DNA from: a virus
Length of the DNA stretch: 20,497 bases
Direction: 5' to 3' (one strand)
IMG/VR virus record: IMGVR_UViG_3300022860_000071
Location: 1-20,497 of that record
Below are positions 1 through 20,497 of this stretch, in pieces. The notes under the pieces are model-generated. The model searched no databases, was not told the DNA's origin, and saw nothing but the letters and a program-made list of their open reading frames with translations. Numbering within the stretch: the stretch's first letter is position 1; each line of letters opens with the position of its first letter. The position numbers and the translations under genes are program-made.

Positions 1-695
1 AGCATCATCCACATGGCACGGACGTAATCGCCGGCAAATCCCCAGTCGCGTTTCGCGGCCAAGTTGCCGAGCGCAAGACGATCCTGTTTTTCTGCTTTGA
101 TCATCACTGCCGCCCTAGTAATTTTCCGCGTGACGAACTCTAAGCCGCGCCGTGGCGATTCATGATTGAACAGAATACCGGAGCAGGCGAACGTGCCGTA
201 GCTGCGCCTGTGAACCTCAACGAGGCGGTGTCCCGCTGTCTTGGCTACTCCGTAGGGTGATTGCGGGTTGAACGGCGTTGTCTCACTTTGCGGCGTCTCC
301 AGTACCTCTCCGAACATTTCAGAGGATGACGCCTGGTAGAATCGCGCATCGGGCTGGATCATCCGAATGGCTTCCAGCAATCGGCCAACTCCGCCGGCCA
401 CGATATCGTTTACCTTTTCCGGTTGCGACCATGAATCAGGGACAAACGACATAGCTCCCAGGTTGTAAACTTCATCGGGCTGCGCCGTTTCGACGGCCCT
501 AATCAGAGACACCATATCGCCCAGGTCGCCACTGATAAACTTCACCTTGTCGATAAGGTGCGCGATCCGCAACGTTGACGGCGTGGACGTTGGACGCACC
601 AGCCCATAGACCTGATAGCCTTTTCCGAGCAAAAACTCCGCAAGGTACGAGCCATCCTGTCCGGTGATCCCGGTAATCAGTGCGGTTTTTATCAT
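1..695 (-). CDS. gmd: GDP-mannose 4,6-dehydratase (3' end beyond window)
   Basis: Converts GDP-D-mannose to GDP-4-keto-6-deoxymannose, the precursor of GDP-fucose, GDP-rhamnose and GDP-perosamine. The frame opens at ATG 695 and stays open to position 1, giving 231 codons of a family that usually has about 320-370. Visible family marks: Rossmann motif GITGQDGSYLAEFLL (residues 9-23), NLGAMSF (78-84), SSSEMFG (123-129) carrying the active-site Ser/Thr-Glu pair, the YGVAK Tyr-x3-Lys pair (148-152), GILFNHESPRRG (173-184) and RDWGFAGDYV (216-225). The start is supported by AAGG six bases upstream and by an ATGA overlap with the stop of the preceding methyltransferase gene, so it is the last visible gene of the glycan operon. 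The C-terminal substrate-binding part lies outside the window. A closely related GDP-sugar SDR enzyme is the only realistic alternative. Confidence 0.93.
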   Translation of the reverse strand, partial: MIKTALITGITGQDGSYLAEFLLGKGYQVYGLVRPTSTPSTLRIAHLIDKVKFISGDLGDMVSLIRAVETAQPDEVYNLGAMSFVPDSWSQPEKVNDIVAGGVGRLLEAIRMIQPDARFYQASSSEMFGEVLETPQSETTPFNPQSPYGVAKTAGHRLVEVHRRSYGTFACSGILFNHESPRRGLEFVTRKITRAAVMIKAEKQDRLALGNLAAKRDWGFAGDYVRAMWMM

Positions 696-1777
696 GCTCC
701 ACCTTCCTTGCCGGCCAGCAACGCGGCCTTGATTTCCGCTAACGCGCCGTTGAGGTATCCTGGAAAAATCTTGTCATACCCATCTTCGCCGTCGCGGTGC
801 CTACCGTAAACGACAGCCTTTGCGTAGTGTTCAAGTACGTCAATCGCCGCAACTCCGTTGGAGGTACACAGCACGTTGCGGATGTGGACGTCCGTTATGG
901 TCTCGTACTTCTCAGCCACGGCTTGGTACGCCTCAACAATTTGTGGATAGATGACATCCACGGTGGGGTACTCCATCCCGAAGTACGTGAGGTTGCACAA
1001 GTTGACCGCGGGGTCGGTGTCTGTCAGGTCCACGTTACCATCGAGCACCCAATTTCTCTGTACACCGCCGTACCCGAGAGTGTGACGCCGACCGCCGTAG
1101 GCAAGCCCCGAGTGTGTGAGATACCCGACCAGATTCTCAGAGTAGAAGCGAGTATTCACGCAACAGTAAATGTCACGCTTCATGGTGGGGTCGGTGGACG
1201 ACGGGGCTTCGCCGATCTTTTTGACGTTGTTATAGAATCGCCGGAGATACTTGTCGACCGGCTGAATGGACACCACCGTACCCACCGAACTTGCAGCACC
1301 GGACTCTTCCAGTGACGGGAACTCAACAATCAACAAGGGGCTGATTCGTGAGAATACGTTGAGGACTTCAAACAGTTCTTTGGGCGGATAGTATTCCAGA
1401 ACATTCAGCGCAACAATGACATCAATTCGGTTTACCGAATATTGCAGCTTCAAGAAATCGAAGATGTCCATCTTGTGAGATGTCAGCACCACGTTGGGTG
1501 TTCCATTTTCAAGCAACATGTCACGTTGTAGCTCCCACCGTGCGGGTACAGACTCCATGCTCCACACCATGCTGTTATTGATTTCTTCGGCAATACGTTG
1601 ACTGAAATACCCGGCATTACTCCCCAGGTCCATCACCACAGAGTTTGCGGGGATGTGCGGTTTGATTGTGTTCCATCGGCCGTCGCAGTCACGCCAACCT
1701 GGATAAACGATTTCACCTTTGACACGAACATCCTGGTAGATGTCGCCGTAATGCTCGGTTGGTTTCAAGTGGTTCAT
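692..1777 (-). CDS. class I SAM-dependent methyltransferase
   Basis: A 361-aa protein. The N-terminal half has a SAM-binding fold: motif I VVMDLGSNAGYF (residues 47-58), an acidic residue at the end of the next strand (MES, 74-76), KMDIFDF (102-108) and IDVIVALNVLEYYPP (118-132). The C-terminal half (about 160-361) matches no domain I recognise and may choose the acceptor. ATG 1777 overlaps the previous stop as TAATG, with GAAGG seven bases upstream inside the previous gene. The frame is open further upstream to 1921, but that part lies entirely inside the preceding gene and has no good ribosome site. The position between a glycosyltransferase-methyltransferase fusion and gmd suggests it methylates a sugar or a glycan intermediate. 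The substrate is unknown. Confidence 0.8.
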   Translation of the reverse strand: MNHLKPTEHYGDIYQDVRVKGEIVYPGWRDCDGRWNTIKPHIPANSVVMDLGSNAGYFSQRIAEEINNSMVWSMESVPARWELQRDMLLENGTPNVVLTSHKMDIFDFLKLQYSVNRIDVIVALNVLEYYPPKELFEVLNVFSRISPLLIVEFPSLEESGAASSVGTVVSIQPVDKYLRRFYNNVKKIGEAPSSTDPTMKRDIYCCVNTRFYSENLVGYLTHSGLAYGGRRHTLGYGGVQRNWVLDGNVDLTDTDPAVNLCNLTYFGMEYPTVDVIYPQIVEAYQAVAEKYETITDVHIRNVLCTSNGVAAIDVLEHYAKAVVYGRHRDGEDGYDKIFPGYLNGALAEIKAALLAGKEGGA

Positions 1778-4005
1778 TATTGTGCCTTCCATATGTACGT
1801 CGGCCCCTGTGCGTATCCAATTGGACCAGCGACCCTTATGTACCCTAGCGGCCCGAGCAGCCGTGATATTTCTTCCGCCTCTGCATTCGGTTCCTGATCC
1901 CACCCGATTGAACATTCGCAAACGATGACGGGCTTGTGTTTTTTAATTGCTTCCATCCCCGATTGCAGAGCAGCAACTTCATCGCCTTCGATATCAAGTT
2001 TGATAAGGCCGATGTTTGAAACGTCGGCCAGCAGGTCGTCCAAACGGGCGCATGGCACCGTTATTGTTCGCCCTGATAAATTGACATCCGACGCCACTTG
2101 CCCCGCCTTCGGCAATTGCGAACGTCCCATGTTGATATCACCGGCAAGCCACATTTCAATGCTTGTCGCGTCACTATCCACAATGGCGAAGCTTTTCACT
2201 TCCCACCGTTTTCCTATAGGAGCGTTTTGAACAAGATTCTTTTTGATCAAGTCGGCAAGAGCCGGAATTGCCTCAATTGAAACAAGTTCAAACGACGGAC
2301 ATTCAGCAGCAAAAAATACTGAGTGGTTGCCGATGTTCGCGCCCACATCAACGTAAGTTCCACCGATACACATATTCCTAATCACTTGCAGCTCTTCGAG
2401 TTCGTAGAACGTCTGGGCGATTGTGATTGACTTGAATACGATCTCGTTTTCAGCCCAGCCTTCGAGCGTGTAATTTTTGCCTTCGTGTGTGATTGTCACG
2501 ACGTTTCGTTTTTCGTCTTCTTTGTGGAAAGAAAACGTTAGATTCATGTTCAACTCGGCCACTTCCAGACGGTCAATGAAAAACCTGTCTCGGTTATGTG
2601 ACCGTCCGTAGGATGTTTCCAGATCAGAACCTTTCACCCAATAATCGAAACTTTGTTTTGCGAAACCTCGCAGGTGCTCAGGATCGGTCCAGACCGCTTC
2701 GGGATAAGCCGCGCTCGGCGACTGCACGAACATATGACCGCCGGGCTTACACACTCGAATCATTTCATTGATCGCGCCGACGCAATCGGGCATGTGTTCG
2801 AGGATATCAATTGCAAGAATTTCATCAAAGGTGTCGTCGGGGAACGGCCATGGAAAGCGGGAGAGATCGTGTACAACGTTGTTCCCAAAATCCATTAAGT
2901 CAGCATTCACAATGTCATATTCAGCGAGCCCCGGAAAACGCCCTACTATTTCAGCATTGCCGCTTCCCAGATTCAAACATTGTTTGCTCATGACTGGCCT
3001 TTCGTCATGGCCTTCGGCTGTGATGATGTTCAACACATCACGCATCCGGTGCATGTAAGTATGATTCCGCCGTACGTGTTCGAAACACTTACGACGTTTT
3101 TCCTCACGCTCCGCGTCGTGTTCCAAATAGTAATCAATCAATTTCTTCAACTCGGAAAAGTCTGTTAGTTTACCCTGTTTGTTATCGAACGTTGTAAGCA
3201 AATCGCCGGGGAAGAATCTTTCGAGCCCTGGAATCATTGGTGCGATAAGGAACCCACCGCGGCCCGTCGTCTCGAAGTACCTATCACTCCAATAATTAGG
3301 AACCCAGATACTGTCACCGATGGCAATCTTCGCGCTCGCATATAAATCATTCAGGTCTTGATTGCGTGCGTCACGCCCATCTACCCACATTTGAAACCGA
3401 TCACCATAAGTATCTTTCAGCCATTCAATCAAACGTTGGCGGAACGGCCACTCCCTAGGATAGTGTTTGTAAGAACCGACAAAAACAATGTCCGCTTTCA
3501 TCTCTTCCCGCGGGATGCCGAATGTCGCCTCAGAGTGCAGAATCCCAGGTGACAAATGATAGTGATTGATTCCCCTGGCTTTGAAGAAGTCTTGATGTCC
3601 ACCATCGGCGGTGAATACAAAGTCCGTCGCCCAAAATGGATTGTCGAGTCTAATGTCAGCTTCACGAGCAAGGCCGACATAAAGATCAAGATGCAATGAC
3701 GCCGTGGTGATCCCCGCTTCTTTCAGTTGAGACAGCAACCATATACCATCATGATCGCCGGCCGAATTCATCCCCCATGTACGGGTATAAAACCAAAGGT
3801 CACAATCTAGCGAGCGTTTAAAAATATCATCAACGGTGGGGGATGCAATGTTATCCAAATCCCGTTCTTGAATTGCAACAACGGTGTGGCCGAGTGCTTC
3901 AAGGCTTTTCTTGATATGAACTTCGGTGCAATGTCTGTGAAGAAAGTTCCCGACGTAAGCGATTCGTAGTGGGTTTTCCGTTATCAGTGAAAAATAATCA
4001 TTCAT
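1777..4005 (-). CDS. glycosyltransferase - methyltransferase - FkbM methyltransferase fusion
   Basis: A 742-aa, three-part protein. Residues about 13-328 look like a GT-B glycosyltransferase of the CgeB/spore-protein type (LRIAYVGNFLHRH, then ADIVFVGSYKHYPREWPF, then the donor-side stretch SDRYFETTGRGGFLIAP at 240-256). Residues about 340-490 are a Methyltransf_11-like SAM domain: LNLGSGNAE (344-352), ILAIDILEHMPD (396-407), RVCKPGGHMFVQSP (417-430). Residues about 540-742 are an FkbM-type methyltransferase: YVDVGANIGNHSVFF (551-565), SIEAIPALADLI (576-587), LIKLDIEGDE (667-676) and CECS (696-699). FkbM enzymes O-methylate sugars and secondary metabolites. The ATG overlaps the previous stop by 8 nt, so translation is likely coupled. 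Inferred role: add a sugar and methylate it, possibly capping a chain. Acceptor unknown. No frameshift seen. Confidence 0.82.
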   Translation of the reverse strand: MNDYFSLITENPLRIAYVGNFLHRHCTEVHIKKSLEALGHTVVAIQERDLDNIASPTVDDIFKRSLDCDLWFYTRTWGMNSAGDHDGIWLLSQLKEAGITTASLHLDLYVGLAREADIRLDNPFWATDFVFTADGGHQDFFKARGINHYHLSPGILHSEATFGIPREEMKADIVFVGSYKHYPREWPFRQRLIEWLKDTYGDRFQMWVDGRDARNQDLNDLYASAKIAIGDSIWVPNYWSDRYFETTGRGGFLIAPMIPGLERFFPGDLLTTFDNKQGKLTDFSELKKLIDYYLEHDAEREEKRRKCFEHVRRNHTYMHRMRDVLNIITAEGHDERPVMSKQCLNLGSGNAEIVGRFPGLAEYDIVNADLMDFGNNVVHDLSRFPWPFPDDTFDEILAIDILEHMPDCVGAINEMIRVCKPGGHMFVQSPSAAYPEAVWTDPEHLRGFAKQSFDYWVKGSDLETSYGRSHNRDRFFIDRLEVAELNMNLTFSFHKEDEKRNVVTITHEGKNYTLEGWAENEIVFKSITIAQTFYELEELQVIRNMCIGGTYVDVGANIGNHSVFFAAECPSFELVSIEAIPALADLIKKNLVQNAPIGKRWEVKSFAIVDSDATSIEMWLAGDINMGRSQLPKAGQVASDVNLSGRTITVPCARLDDLLADVSNIGLIKLDIEGDEVAALQSGMEAIKKHKPVIVCECSIGWDQEPNAEAEEISRLLGPLGYIRVAGPIGYAQGPTYIWKAQ

Positions 4006-7000
4006 CGAAAATCATCCTCTTGATTGCAGGAAGCATTCGTTTCCAACTAATTGCGTCGGCCATTCGGTTTGCAAGTTGTGATTCGACTCTAATGTCTCGG
4101 CCCGCCCAATTGTCAATCGTTGCTGCAATGATTTTCGGTGACTGCTCGGCAATTTCAACGGTTCGGCGAAGTTTAAAAGGCTTCACACTTCGAGGGGCAA
4201 ATAGCCAGTGTGGCGGTAAAATTGTGTTCTGTGGAATCATATCAGTCATCAGCACAGGCAACCCACACGCAAGGGCCTCGTTCATCGGCAGGGACATTCC
4301 CGCGTAACGACGCGGGTGTAAAAAGATGTCGCCCTCTGTCCAATTGTCTTCCGGGTTGTCCTTGCATGACACGTCCACAGTCACACGCGGATCCGTGATT
4401 TGTGGTATCTCCTGAATGGATCGAAGAATGAAACGAACATCTTGGTTTTTCACAAGCGGGATCGCGGCAAGCAGCGCTTTCACGCCGCCGCGATCTTCTA
4501 TCAAATGAGGGTGACCGAGAACGGAAACAAACGTCTTAGCCTCTGTCCTTTCACGATACACAAACCGGTCACGATCGATCGGCATGGGGATAAATGTTGC
4601 GCTGCCTTCTTCTCGATGAATATCTGTCATGTGCCAGTTGACGGGCATCCACAACACATCCGCACGGCCGGGGAGCGGATTGTCAAGGTACTCATAATCC
4701 ACCATCATTATCGTACGGATTCCGCGTTTCCGCGCCATGTCGAACAACGCCCAATTGTAGGGCGTTTCGAATGTCACGATCACGTCAAGGTCTTCCATCC
4801 ATGATTCAAGGAGTTCATTGGGTAGGCATGGATCAACGCTGTATCGTACTATCTCAGGATTGATTCCTGGGAACGCTTCAAGATTGATCGGGTCGTGTCC
4901 GACATCGATGATGATGGACTTGTCCGGTTTGATGTACTTGTAAAAGTCTTGGCTAATTCGTGCCAGGCCACCATGATCGGCCCTCAATATCATACCGAGT
5001 CGGGGCGTATCGGTTAGTGATAAACGACGTGGCGCGAGCACGATTTCAACTTTGGGTTTGGCTTTAACCTCAACTGACAGCGGCTCAGTCTTTGAATCTT
5101 TAGCTGAGTGGCTCTTTCGCTGCCAACGAACACGGCCCCCGCGCCGACTGGTCCGCGGTTCAACGGGCGGTTTCTTTTTTTCCCAACGGACCCCTGCGCC
5201 GTTGGGTCCGCGCTGACTGGTTCGTTCAGTTGGTATTTCTTTCTTCTTCCAGCGAACACCGCCGATGCTTGATTTGCGATTGGTCCGCGGTTCTATGGAT
5301 GGTTTCTTTTTCGGGAGCGGCTTTTCAGCAAGGTCACTAGTACGAGCGTTATCAAAAATGTTTCTGTTCCATGTGACCGGAGCTATCGGCGACGGATCAA
5401 GGTGTTTGTGTTTCCAATCATGCCACGCTGCGATCTCTACAATACGGTTAGTCGTATAATCACCGATGCTGTCGGGGTCGATGTGTTCACGATAACACAC
5501 AAACTCGTCCTGGGCGACTTTGAAAATTGCGCCGGCGCGTTGCAACCGGCACCACAGATCGAAGTCTTGCGCGGGCCCTTTTTGCGTGTAACCGCCGATT
5601 GATAAAACCTGATAGCGATACATCATCACGGTCGGGTGAGCCACGCACCAGGGCTGCGCTTCAATTGCGACGGCTGGATTCAACGCCAACACGTTCGTTG
5701 GCTTGCCACTCAACAAAGACATCTGGCCAGACACCACATCGGCGTCGACCATCATAGGCAACTGTAACGCCAGCCGCCCATCGGGCATGATATCATCGGC
5801 GTCGTGCCGAGCAATGATGTCGGCCCGTGCCGCACGAATGCCGACGTTCAACGTCTCACTAATTCCACCCTGAAGTTTGTGAAGTAGTACGACGACCGAA
5901 GGGTTCTCAGCCGCGATCCTGTCTAATTCGAGCAGTGTGTCTTGACGGTCGGAACCGTCGTCAACAATCACCAACTCGAACGCCACCCCGCGTTGTGACA
6001 AGATCGACTCGACCGATTCACGAAGCCACGCCGGATCGGTGTTCCACACAGGCACCACGACAGAAACTTCGAACCCCTTCGGTCGCCGTACTACGCCATC
6101 AGTTCGCTTTGCGTAAACCGTTTCATATCCTGCAATCATTTTCCCGAGCGGGAATTGTTCGACGGCCCGAGCGCGAGCTTTTTTCCTCAATGCGCTGAAT
6201 CGTTTTTTGTCCTTTGCCAACGCTTCAATCTCAACGAAGAACTGCGAATCATCATCCGCAGCGATATCAACATCGATCAGGATTCCAGCGTTGCCAACTG
6301 TGTCAGGTAATCCTTCAATGGCGCGGGCGACCACCGGCACACCACACGCCATCGCTTCAAGGGCGACGAACGATACTGAGTCATTTTCCGATGGAATAAC
6401 TAACACGTCCATCTGCTGATATTGCTCAGGCATTTCATCGGGTAAAACGTCATCAAGCATTTCCACACAGGGGATCGCGGCAAGCGTTTCGCCGAGCGCT
6501 TCCGTGTGGGGGTTCAGCGCCCCATGGCCAACGAACCGAACGATGAAATCAGCGGGGGCGTTCCATTCGGAAAGAGCAGTTACAAACGACAGTGGTAACT
6601 TCTCAATGGACCGACGACCAACGAAACCGATGACAAACGGCTTGGATGCCTTCCGACGCTTCGCCGGTTTGAACAAGTCGATGTCAACGCCGTGACGTAC
6701 AATGCGATATTCAGAAACATTGTTAGGACAGATCGGCACGATCCACGGAGCGGCGTTTTTGTTGTGGTCCCAACAGTGGCACGTCCCAACCCTTTTGTAG
6801 CGACCCTGGATAAACTTCATCATCCATGTACTTTTCGGATGATGATGATGGACGATGTCGGGTTTGATTTCTTGGAGGATCGCCTGGGCATGATCGGACT
6901 GATCGAATTTTCTAACTTGAACATTATGCGGCAACGTATGTGACCATACGTCATCATGAGACCGATCATTCGGAGCAATGATGTATACGTCGCAGAACGT

Positions 7001-7096
7001 TGAAAACGCAGACGCCAACGTAAAAAGAAAACGCTGTGCCCCGCCAGTTGTCAACTGCCAGGGGAAAAGGTGAGCAATCGCGGGGCGGCGATTCAT
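3998..7096 (-). CDS. three-domain glycosyltransferase (GT4-GT2-GT4-like)
   Basis: A 1032-aa cytosolic protein with no signal peptide. Residues 1-330 are a GT-B, GT4-family domain: glycine motif TTGGAQRF (16-23), HGVDIDLFKP (135-144), ENDSVSFVALEAMACGVPVV (237-256) with the E-x7-E-like donor-binding pattern. Residues 343-550 are a GT-A, GT2-family domain: VSVVVPVWN (344-352), VIVDDGS (376-382), metal-binding DxD in RHDADD (430-435), and GPAQDFDLWCRLQRAG (507-522) near the catalytic base. Residues 590-690 form a very basic linker with three repeats. Residues 698-1030 are a second GT-B-like domain: MPIDRDRF (838-845) and HPRRYAGMSLPMNEALACG (927-945). ATG 7096 has GGAGA six bases upstream. Three transferase domains on one chain suggest sequential sugar additions. 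Sugars and acceptor are not predictable. Confidence 0.87.
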   Translation of the reverse strand: MNRRPAIAHLFPWQLTTGGAQRFLFTLASAFSTFCDVYIIAPNDRSHDDVWSHTLPHNVQVRKFDQSDHAQAILQEIKPDIVHHHHPKSTWMMKFIQGRYKRVGTCHCWDHNKNAAPWIVPICPNNVSEYRIVRHGVDIDLFKPAKRRKASKPFVIGFVGRRSIEKLPLSFVTALSEWNAPADFIVRFVGHGALNPHTEALGETLAAIPCVEMLDDVLPDEMPEQYQQMDVLVIPSENDSVSFVALEAMACGVPVVARAIEGLPDTVGNAGILIDVDIAADDDSQFFVEIEALAKDKKRFSALRKKARARAVEQFPLGKMIAGYETVYAKRTDGVVRRPKGFEVSVVVPVWNTDPAWLRESVESILSQRGVAFELVIVDDGSDRQDTLLELDRIAAENPSVVVLLHKLQGGISETLNVGIRAARADIIARHDADDIMPDGRLALQLPMMVDADVVSGQMSLLSGKPTNVLALNPAVAIEAQPWCVAHPTVMMYRYQVLSIGGYTQKGPAQDFDLWCRLQRAGAIFKVAQDEFVCYREHIDPDSIGDYTTNRIVEIAAWHDWKHKHLDPSPIAPVTWNRNIFDNARTSDLAEKPLPKKKPSIEPRTNRKSSIGGVRWKKKEIPTERTSQRGPNGAGVRWEKKKPPVEPRTSRRGGRVRWQRKSHSAKDSKTEPLSVEVKAKPKVEIVLAPRRLSLTDTPRLGMILRADHGGLARISQDFYKYIKPDKSIIIDVGHDPINLEAFPGINPEIVRYSVDPCLPNELLESWMEDLDVIVTFETPYNWALFDMARKRGIRTIMMVDYEYLDNPLPGRADVLWMPVNWHMTDIHREEGSATFIPMPIDRDRFVYRERTEAKTFVSVLGHPHLIEDRGGVKALLAAIPLVKNQDVRFILRSIQEIPQITDPRVTVDVSCKDNPEDNWTEGDIFLHPRRYAGMSLPMNEALACGLPVLMTDMIPQNTILPPHWLFAPRSVKPFKLRRTVEIAEQSPKIIAATIDNWAGRDIRVESQLANRMADAISWKRMLPAIKRMIFDE
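5123..5311 (-). repeat. three imperfect basic repeats inside the glycosyltransferase linker
   Basis: Residues 596-658 of the 1032-aa protein hold three consecutive units of 20-22 residues. Each follows the pattern K-K-K-P/I-x-x-E-(P)-R-T-x-R/Q ... G-V/R-V-R-W and ends in RW followed by more lysine or arginine. The repeat is also visible in the DNA as three related blocks with shared ggtccgcggttc-like and ggtttcttttt-like stretches. The pattern suggests a flexible, strongly positive tether that could bind nucleic acid, acidic membrane lipids or an acidic partner. This is an inference from composition only. Confidence 0.8.
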
Positions 7097-7113
7097 GTAA
7101 AGTCTCCTGTCGT

Positions 7114-18208: not shown

Positions 18209-18625
18209 TTAGCTCCCGCCAAGGAACATCATGACATCGTCAGTATCAAACACCCACTCGCGTGCCCCACCGTCGCGGCCATAAGCCGCATCTGGCGGTT
18301 TCTCAATCCAGACATATTTTGCGACGTGCTTGTCTGTGCCAGAATTGTCCATTGCCACAAGCGGAACGACGCCCGAGTTCGTCAATTCGTCGGCCAACAT
18401 CAACGCTGACATTGACGCATTCTGACTGCTTGTTTGTTTCAACCTCACCGTAATCTTTCCAGCTCGGTTGTTCGTTTTCGACCGCGATCCTTCACCCGTT
18501 GCGCCGATCTGTTTTGTGAACGACACCTCGTCACGCGTGACAACAAGGACGTCACCCTCTTCAAAATCAGAGAGGATATACGGACCAATCACTAACTTCA
18601 TTTCTTTCAAATCCCACGTTTCCAT
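18209..18625 (-). CDS. tail tube-like structural protein
   Basis: A 138-aa protein directly after the sheath and before the chaperone, the standard tube position. It is beta-rich: KLVIGPYILSDFEEGDVLVV (residues 10-29), a conserved-looking turn GATGEGSRSKTNNRAG (41-56), KITVRLKQTSSQNASMSAL (57-75), HVAKYVWIEKPPDAAY and REWVFDTDDVMMFLGG at the end. The last part, where strands end in a hydrophobic MMFLGG, is typical of phage tube proteins. ATG 18625 has AAGGAG six bases upstream; the TTG five codons earlier overlaps the ribosome site and is unlikely. The first 56 codons are present a second time, diverged, just upstream (18711-18878). Confidence 0.8.
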   Translation of the reverse strand: METWDLKEMKLVIGPYILSDFEEGDVLVVTRDEVSFTKQIGATGEGSRSKTNNRAGKITVRLKQTSSQNASMSALMLADELTNSGVVPLVAMDNSGTDKHVAKYVWIEKPPDAAYGRDGGAREWVFDTDDVMMFLGGS

Positions 18626-18703
18626 TATTAACTCCTTCAAACGAATCGGTCGTTATGCGCTCACCGTGCCGCTGACGATGACGGTATGGATCGCGCCGGC
18701 CAA
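18465..18703 (+). repeat. direct repeat, downstream copy (sheath/tube junction)
   Basis: 239 bp that match 18718-18956 at an offset of 253 bp, with 9 mismatches by eye (about 96% identity). On the minus strand it holds the last 51 bases of the sheath gene, the intergenic ribosome site and the first part of the intact tube gene. All nine differences lie between 18465 and 18630, which covers the tube-coding part and the base next to its ribosome site. The 73 bp from 18631 to 18703 are identical in both copies. Confidence 0.95.
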
Positions 18704-18715
18704 CGCCTAGTCAAG
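18653..18715 (-). pseudogene. remnant of the sheath 3' end
   Basis: Reading CTT GAC TAG GCG TTG GCC GGC and onward, it is the sheath C-terminus in the sheath frame. It starts from the LDEAL part, with GAG changed to the stop TAG, then jumps over 93 bases (31 codons, in frame) at a shared TTGG and continues as LAGAIHTVIVSGTVSA and TAA. It has no start and is not expected to be translated on its own. Confidence 0.8.
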
Positions 18716-18878
18716 GGCGGTTGTTCGTTTTCGACCGCGATCCTTCACCCGTTGCGCCGATCTGTTTTGTGAGCGACACCTCGTCACGCGTGACAACAAG
18801 AATGTCGCCCTCTTCAAAATCAGAGATGATATACGAACCAATCACTAGCTTCATTTCTTTCAAATCCCACGTTTTCAT
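18711..18878 (-). pseudogene. truncated 5' copy of the tail tube gene (55 codons)
   Basis: ATG 18878 with an intact AAGGAG six bases upstream opens a 55-codon frame ending in TGA 18711-18713. Residues 1-54 match the start of the tube protein with five replacements (E2K, P15S, L18I, V26I, F36L), mostly conservative. After KTNNR it runs into sheath-derived sequence and stops. Because its ribosome site is good, a short N-terminal tube fragment may be translated and could compete with tube assembly. It is more likely debris of recombination with a relative. Confidence 0.85.
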
Positions 18879-18956
18879 TATTTACTCCTTCAAACGAATC
18901 GGTCGTTATGCGCTCACCGTGCCGCTGACGATGACGGTATGGATCGCGCCGGCCAA
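18718..18956 (+). repeat. direct repeat, upstream copy (sheath/tube junction)
   Basis: Partner of 18465-18703. It contains the real 3' end of the sheath gene (18906-18956) and a truncated first part of a tube gene. The 14 bases between the copies (18704-18717) are not random: 18700-18715 match 19046-19061 inside the sheath gene at 15 of 16 positions, so the spacer is leftover sheath sequence. Confidence 0.95.
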
Positions 18957-20497
18957 TGTGGCTTTCCACTTGATGTCAGTCAGCAATCGTGCGGATCGAG
19001 TTGCCGCTGCTACATCGGCCCGCTTCGGATACGTCAGATAGAATCCCAACGCCTCGTCAAGATCGGTGTCAAATGCTAAAAAACCGACGGTCTGCGCGAT
19101 CTGCAAACGCATGGTGATCTGGTTGACAATCACCATAATCCCATCGTCAGTATATGGGACTTTGTTCGATGCCACGAGTGCGGAATAGATGTCTTCCTGC
19201 ATCCGAGTTGTGAGCCAATCACGCCCGACAATGATGTCGATCCATTCGCCGGAATGAACACACCCTTCTCGAAAGATCGACGTTCCGCCGACACTGTCAA
19301 AGAAGTTCATGCGAAGCCCGCCAAGATCGCCGCCGCTCATTGGATCGCCGATCAGCCGAGCCTTCTGTGTTGGCGTAAGAGCGCAAACAACAAACCCATT
19401 TGGACTAGCGAATTTCCACGTCGCCGTTTCGGTGTCGAGGTCAACAGTCAGCCGCGAAGCAAAGATTCCGAAATCAAGCCACTGCTCGTTCGTGTCATCG
19501 GTGGCGTCTGCTTCGTTGTAGTAGCCTGTGCCGCGGGGGTCGTAGATCCCCATCGTGCGCTCAAAATCCATATCCGAGCAAGAGGCCGCAACCGAATCGC
19601 CGCCGTCATCTTCATCGACGGCATCCGTATCCGAACTTGCATAACTGAATACCGTGATTTCCGTTTCGGCTTTCGCCGCGCAAAGATACTGCGGAATTTT
19701 GGATCGGTCGACCAGTCCATAGGCGTACCACGCCGTCGAAGCAAGGCGGCACGCATCGAAGGCCTGAGCCATCGTCTCGCCGTAAAAACGAATATACGGG
19801 AAGTCGTCTTCAATGGCATCATCGAACTCAATGTCCAATCGACACGATGCACTTTCGTTGATCACAATAAACTTAGCCGGATCACCGCCCGGAATCGGAT
19901 GCGCCGGAGTGAACTCAGCGAACACGCCGTCAATTGTCGCTGCGTTTATCGCATCGCGCCAACCCTCGAACAATTCATCGACATCAGTGACCGCGCCAGT
20001 CGTGAAAGCGCAATCGGTTTTGTTGACTGTGATTGTGTACTCGGTCAACGGAGTAACCGAAGCTCCGTTAAACGAAACGACGGCACCATACGGGAGTAAC
20101 GTGAATTTTCCATCGCCCGCCGCAACGAAGGTTTCAACGGCGACCAGCGGAGTTCGCCCTTCGGTGCCTCTGACAATGAGCAACATCACCGGATCGTCGT
20201 CTTGCGTCAACGCCCCAGCGGTGAACGGAACGTCCTTGTCGTCCTTCACCGCTTGGACTAGTCCACCGATGATCGCCGCTGCGTCAGCATAGGCTGAGAC
20301 ATAAGTGATCGTTTTCGATTCCTCAGCCTCGTCGTCGTATTTCCAGTGAAGATCAAATGAATACGTTCCGATCGAGAGTGCAAGTCCGCCAAGTTCGAGG
20401 GCGAAATATAGCATCTTGATCCGACCAACAGCGAATGAACTCGGTTTCGGCGATGGCTTGAAATAGGCGTCGTAAGCCTGTTCAACCGGAAGATAGT
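18906..20497 (-). CDS. contractile tail sheath protein, DUF3383 type (5' end beyond window)
   Basis: Sheath subunit that surrounds the tube and contracts. The frame is open to the right edge: codons upstream of the first ATG (20414) read LPVEQAYDAYFKPSPKPSSF and AVGRIKM, which matches the usual interior of this family, so the ATG is internal and the true start is outside. Visible length is at least 529 residues. The C-terminal half has the DUF3383 signature: TPTQKARLIG, GGTSIFREGCVHSGEWID, IIVGRDWLTTRMQEDIYSAL and NKVPYTDDGIMVIVNQI, ending IHTVIVSGTVSA. The N-terminal half carries two beta-rich modules (around nt 20245-20365 and 19941-20045), the second resembling the insert in baseplate J. 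First gene of the visible tail operon. Confidence 0.9.
   Translation of the reverse strand, partial: YLPVEQAYDAYFKPSPKPSSFAVGRIKMLYFALELGGLALSIGTYSFDLHWKYDDEAEESKTITYVSAYADAAAIIGGLVQAVKDDKDVPFTAGALTQDDDPVMLLIVRGTEGRTPLVAVETFVAAGDGKFTLLPYGAVVSFNGASVTPLTEYTITVNKTDCAFTTGAVTDVDELFEGWRDAINAATIDGVFAEFTPAHPIPGGDPAKFIVINESASCRLDIEFDDAIEDDFPYIRFYGETMAQAFDACRLASTAWYAYGLVDRSKIPQYLCAAKAETEITVFSYASSDTDAVDEDDGGDSVAASCSDMDFERTMGIYDPRGTGYYNEADATDDTNEQWLDFGIFASRLTVDLDTETATWKFASPNGFVVCALTPTQKARLIGDPMSGGDLGGLRMNFFDSVGGTSIFREGCVHSGEWIDIIVGRDWLTTRMQEDIYSALVASNKVPYTDDGIMVIVNQITMRLQIAQTVGFLAFDTDLDEALGFYLTYPKRADVAAATRSARLLTDIKWKATLAGAIHTVIVSGTVSA

Follow-up and report, generated by a model that had tools for sequence, protein, structure and literature searches.

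A tandem partial duplication at the tail sheath/tube junction of an uncultivated contractile-tailed phage

The DNA comes from an uncultivated, contractile-tailed virus of bacteria, in which the junction between the tail sheath gene and the tail tube gene is present twice as a 239-bp direct repeat, with a truncated tube reading frame in the upstream copy and an intact tube gene downstream. With a probability of roughly 0.55, we regard this arrangement as a real tandem partial duplication that became fixed in one environmental phage population and in which one of the two tube alleles came from a related phage. The extra piece has no sign of a special function and is an ordinary kind of recombination scar.

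Structure of the repeat and its joints

The window analyzed is a whole IMG/VR virus record of 20,497 bp; its features are collected in Table 1. The sheath was identified by matches to phrog_205 (tail sheath, 4.6e-57) and DUF3383. Its stop codon is intact at 18906–18908, and an overlapping contig, L008, contains the full 590-amino acid sheath frame. The product of the small downstream gene matched phrog_280 (3.2e-34, over residues 1–137; the category in PHROGs itself is virion structural protein) and PF11681, aligned over its full length with its relatives, and gave phmmer sequence matches to PDB chains of solved tail-tube proteins. Given these matches to tail-tube proteins and its location after the sheath gene, it was assigned as the tube gene. 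Sheath and full tube are thus both complete, which makes the extra block dispensable in principle.

Table 1. Coordinates of the features in the window.
Feature	Position	Strand	Description
Sheath, tube, tail assembly chaperone, tape measure and baseplate genes		minus	
Tail sheath gene, 3' part	18906..20495	minus	529 codons in window; start off contig
Repeat copy 1, allele A	18718..18956	minus	sheath 3' end, GGAG ribosome site, first 53–54 tube codons
Truncated tube reading frame	18711..18878	minus	55 codons (MKTWDLKEMKLVIGSYIISDFEEGDILVVTRDEVSLTKQIGATGEGSRSKTNNRP), then TGA
Spacer between copies	18704..18717	minus	14 bp; sheath-derived, then in-frame 93-bp loss
Repeat copy 2, allele B	18465..18703	minus	sheath 3'-end remnant, ribosome site, start of intact tube gene
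Intact tail tube gene	18209..18625	minus	138 aa, own GGAG site

Immediately beyond the tail genes and in the same orientation (positions 1–7100) are genes that, by their sequences alone, resemble those for sugar-nucleotide dehydratases, methyltransferases and glycosyltransferases, which suggests that the phage may modify glycans. One of them (3998–7096, minus strand), encoding a glycosyltransferase-like protein of 1032 residues, contains a 35-bp direct repeat (5145–5311, 86%, offset 132) that encodes a repeated basic linker of the type EPRTxRxxxxxxVRWxKK.

The two copies of the junction repeat are offset by 253 bp and match at 230 of 239 positions (96.2%), which is far beyond chance; the other best direct-repeat families in the window reach only 20–37 nt at 60–86%. 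In the direction of transcription, the sheath 3' end and stop codon are followed by GGAG and by a tube frame that begins with MKTWDLKE..., continues as far as NNR and closes with one foreign codon and TGA. After these come CTTGACTAGGCG, a second set of the last 17 sheath codons, another GGAG and the intact tube gene, METWDLKE.... An initial reading of the sequence alone had described such a repeat, spanning the sheath 3' end, the ribosome site and the tube 5' end, together with a truncated tube gene, and our alignment bears this out. The nine mismatches are located at positions 18520, 18548, 18550, 18554, 18574, 18583, 18595, 18622 and 18630. Eight of them fall within the tube reading frame. 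Only 18630/18883 is outside it, between GGAG and ATG, so that the earlier placement of all nine at or beyond the tube start is accurate to five bases. The 73 bp on the sheath side (18631–18703) are identical, as had been noted, and so are the distal 55 bp (18465–18519). These blocks are the longest exact runs that the copies have in common.

The spacer had been read as a piece of the sheath gene joined at TTGG after an in-frame 93-bp loss, and this held up. The sequence CTTGACTAGGCGTTGG (18700–18715), which takes in spacer bases and the adjoining TTGG, matches the sheath gene at 19046–19061 in 15 of 16 positions, the sole site with three or fewer mismatches on either strand of the 20.5 kb. The offsets of 346 for this match and 253 for the repeat give the 93-bp in-frame loss, and both ends of the deletion carry TTGG. 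Within the sheath remnant a stop codon has also arisen, from GAG to TAG. At the other joint, the tube sequence AACAACCGAGCT and the sheath sequence GACACCGATCT have ACCGA in common and meet at ACCG(A), giving ACCGCCCT. Microhomologies such as ACCGA and TTGG are typical for illegitimate recombination. The copies are adjacent and in the same orientation, their borders are arbitrary with respect to the genes, and they are connected through one joint sequence with microhomology, as in an illegitimate tandem partial duplication.

Since the intact tube gene still has a ribosome site of its own, the truncated frame most likely has no function and is carried along as a passenger. We also considered that the frame might be kept by selection, as a small tube-related protein, a translation-tuning leader or a means of tuning the tube-to-sheath stoichiometry. 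The frame is open and has retained its ATG and GGAG site, and tandem tube-family genes after the sheath are known, with three phrog_280 genes in Pseudomonas phage KIL1. Against a function, the cut falls arbitrarily after the NNR motif with a stop one codon beyond the joint, 84 of 138 residues are gone, the frame alone has no Pfam match, a conserved Phe has been changed, and nothing comparable is kept in any relative. Together these observations make selection for the frame very improbable.

Recurrence in two other contigs and absence from relatives

The arrangement is not limited to one assembly. The whole duplication is present in IMGVR_UViG_3300031227_002296 and IMGVR_UViG_3300023434_000025, which share 4,659 and 5,477 bp with the window at 100% identity. 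The three records have different contig ends and come from different datasets, which are possibly not independent samples; a literature search found no paper naming these datasets. The sequence-only reading had named an assembler that joined two alleles as one result that would undo its interpretation. Two co-occurring strain alleles put head to tail by an assembler could account for a repeat of this kind, since the contig is metagenomic and identity of about 96% is typical of variation between co-occurring strains. However, the sequence across the spacer joint is unique and must have been present in the reads. Exact runs of 73 and 55 bp are shorter than the usual read length and final assembly k-mers, and since none is longer than 73 bp, a standard read of 150 bases connects either copy with the sequence flanking it. 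Given these short runs and the assembly of one sequence in three records with different ends, we consider an assembler error unlikely, at a level only slightly above that of a selected function.

Tube relatives from 17 loci were aligned, with identities of 58–61% for L004, L005 and L006 and down to 32% for more distant ones. In the stretches covered, none of these loci has a second tube copy, each tube protein matching only itself, and in most of them sheath and tube are about 10–90 bp apart. The duplication is therefore observed in one phage lineage only. A search of IMG/VR for a donor allele, with the truncated frame, the start of allele A, the sheath protein and the undeleted sheath end as queries, returned only the two identical contigs, and neither allele A nor allele B was found there without the duplication in a second phage. 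Cultured phages gave no DNA match and protein matches only below 60% identity, and no match was found among prophages in bacterial and archaeal genomes.

Origin of the nine differences

The earlier reading interpreted the structure as a scar of recombination between related phages rather than of simple replication slippage. The scar itself is supported by the two microhomology joints and the rearranged sheath piece between the copies. The related-phage source is plausible, and we lean slightly toward it. The nine differences span 111 of the 239 bp (P = 0.0098 for uniform placement), with none in the 73 bp of the sheath side (P = 0.035) or the distal 55 bp (P = 0.024); the three values describe one clustering and are not independent. 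The differences thus occupy a tract with sharp ends, as allelic recombination between phages would leave, and their clustering favors an imported allele. Exchange between related alleles is the origin to which we give somewhat better than even odds.

A duplication that arose within a single phage genome through template switching between microhomologies, with the truncated tube then decaying by point mutation under neutral drift and no second phage involved, is a serious if less probable alternative. It would account for ACCGA and TTGG at the joints and for the stop codon and 93-bp deletion in the sheath remnant. It also agrees with the residues changed in the truncated copy. Position 36 is Phe in 17 of 17 relatives and Leu in this copy, and the F36L change would fit decay after truncation; P15S and V26I are changes relative to both nearest relatives. 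The branch of the truncated copy is slightly longer (0.033–0.040 versus 0.014–0.024), and the differing codons show no bias to family-variable positions (P = 0.31–0.49), as expected for drift. Apart from F36L the changes are conservative, and one to two are located in the intact copy. The clearest probable derived change there is K2E, since relatives mostly have AAA at this codon. Both copies therefore appear to have changed. The five non-synonymous and three synonymous changes did not discriminate between the models (Fisher P = 0.38), and how conserved the differing codons are did not separate them either. In contrast, drift within one lineage does not readily explain why the sheath side stayed unchanged when one copy of it is equally useless, or why the distal block did. 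In addition, a perfect tandem repeat should be lost easily via homologous recombination, and the initial repeat would be expected to disappear before nine changes accumulated.

The preferred reading as a whole, a real tandem duplication with exchange between related phages, is supported by the repeat with its joints, the recurrence in three contigs, the single tube copy in the 17 relative loci and the 111-bp clustering. The failure to find an unduplicated A or B allele in IMG/VR, F36L and the lack of codon bias speak against it. We infer the following order of events. An illegitimate exchange between ACCGA in the tube gene and ACCGA in the sheath 3' region would have cut one tube gene after about 54 codons, with a second block of sheath 3' end, ribosome site and tube gene coming to lie downstream of it. 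A 93-bp deletion between the two TTGG sites would then have shortened the now useless sheath remnant. Finally, ordinary homologous recombination, with crossovers in the sheath-side and distal identical blocks, may have replaced the tube portion of one copy with a related phage's allele; alternatively, the copies may already have been different alleles when they were joined.

Comparison with other phages

It is well established that proteins encoded by phages can recombine diverged phage sequences, and phage Red systems efficiently recombine sequences that are 22% diverged (Martinsohn et al., 2008, PMC2327257); an allele diverged by 4–8% would thus meet no barrier. As in the genome mosaicism described there, the present case has joints at short homologies or an exchange between diverged alleles, and a sharp-bounded mosaic. 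That study used temperate lambdoid phages in the laboratory, whereas the present observation is limited to the end product, in a phage that has not been cultivated.

In KIL1 (Flaumdravirus, KU130126), too, a DUF3383/phrog_205 sheath gene is followed directly by multiple phrog_280 genes. Its three consecutive genes, KIL1_0063–0065 (L039:4366–6002), are annotated as hypothetical. They are full-length and strongly diverged, about 28–34% identical where compared, whereas the phage studied here has one 55-codon fragment at 96% DNA identity. The KIL1 trio is flanked on either side by homing endonuclease genes, and between the sheath and the first gene there is a group I intron match; neither element was found in the window analyzed here. 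At L039:3200–4361 (KU130126.1 about 30668–31829) the annotated KIL1 sheath, KIL1_0061, stops early, and the C-terminal end expected for it, AGAIHFVKISGTVN, comes after this in a different reading position. The intron match (RF00028, 71.9 bits) and a GIY-YIG homing endonuclease gene come right after KIL1_0061, where the record annotates promoters and no intron. KIL1 suggested a remnant of such elements as a candidate here, which we rejected: no Rfam match was found in the window at E 0.1, and the 14-bp spacer is too short to contain an intron or an endonuclease gene. As KIL1 shows, additional tube genes can be accommodated at the sheath/tube junction, but the event there is not the same as the one seen here.

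In a structural gene cluster that is normally compact, the duplication offers a clear natural case of a rearrangement that has arisen and is not yet lost. It shows that scars of this type can reach a frequency within a phage population at which they are assembled more than once. The finding changes no known mechanism, but it is relevant to how additional tube genes, like the three found in KIL1, may originate.
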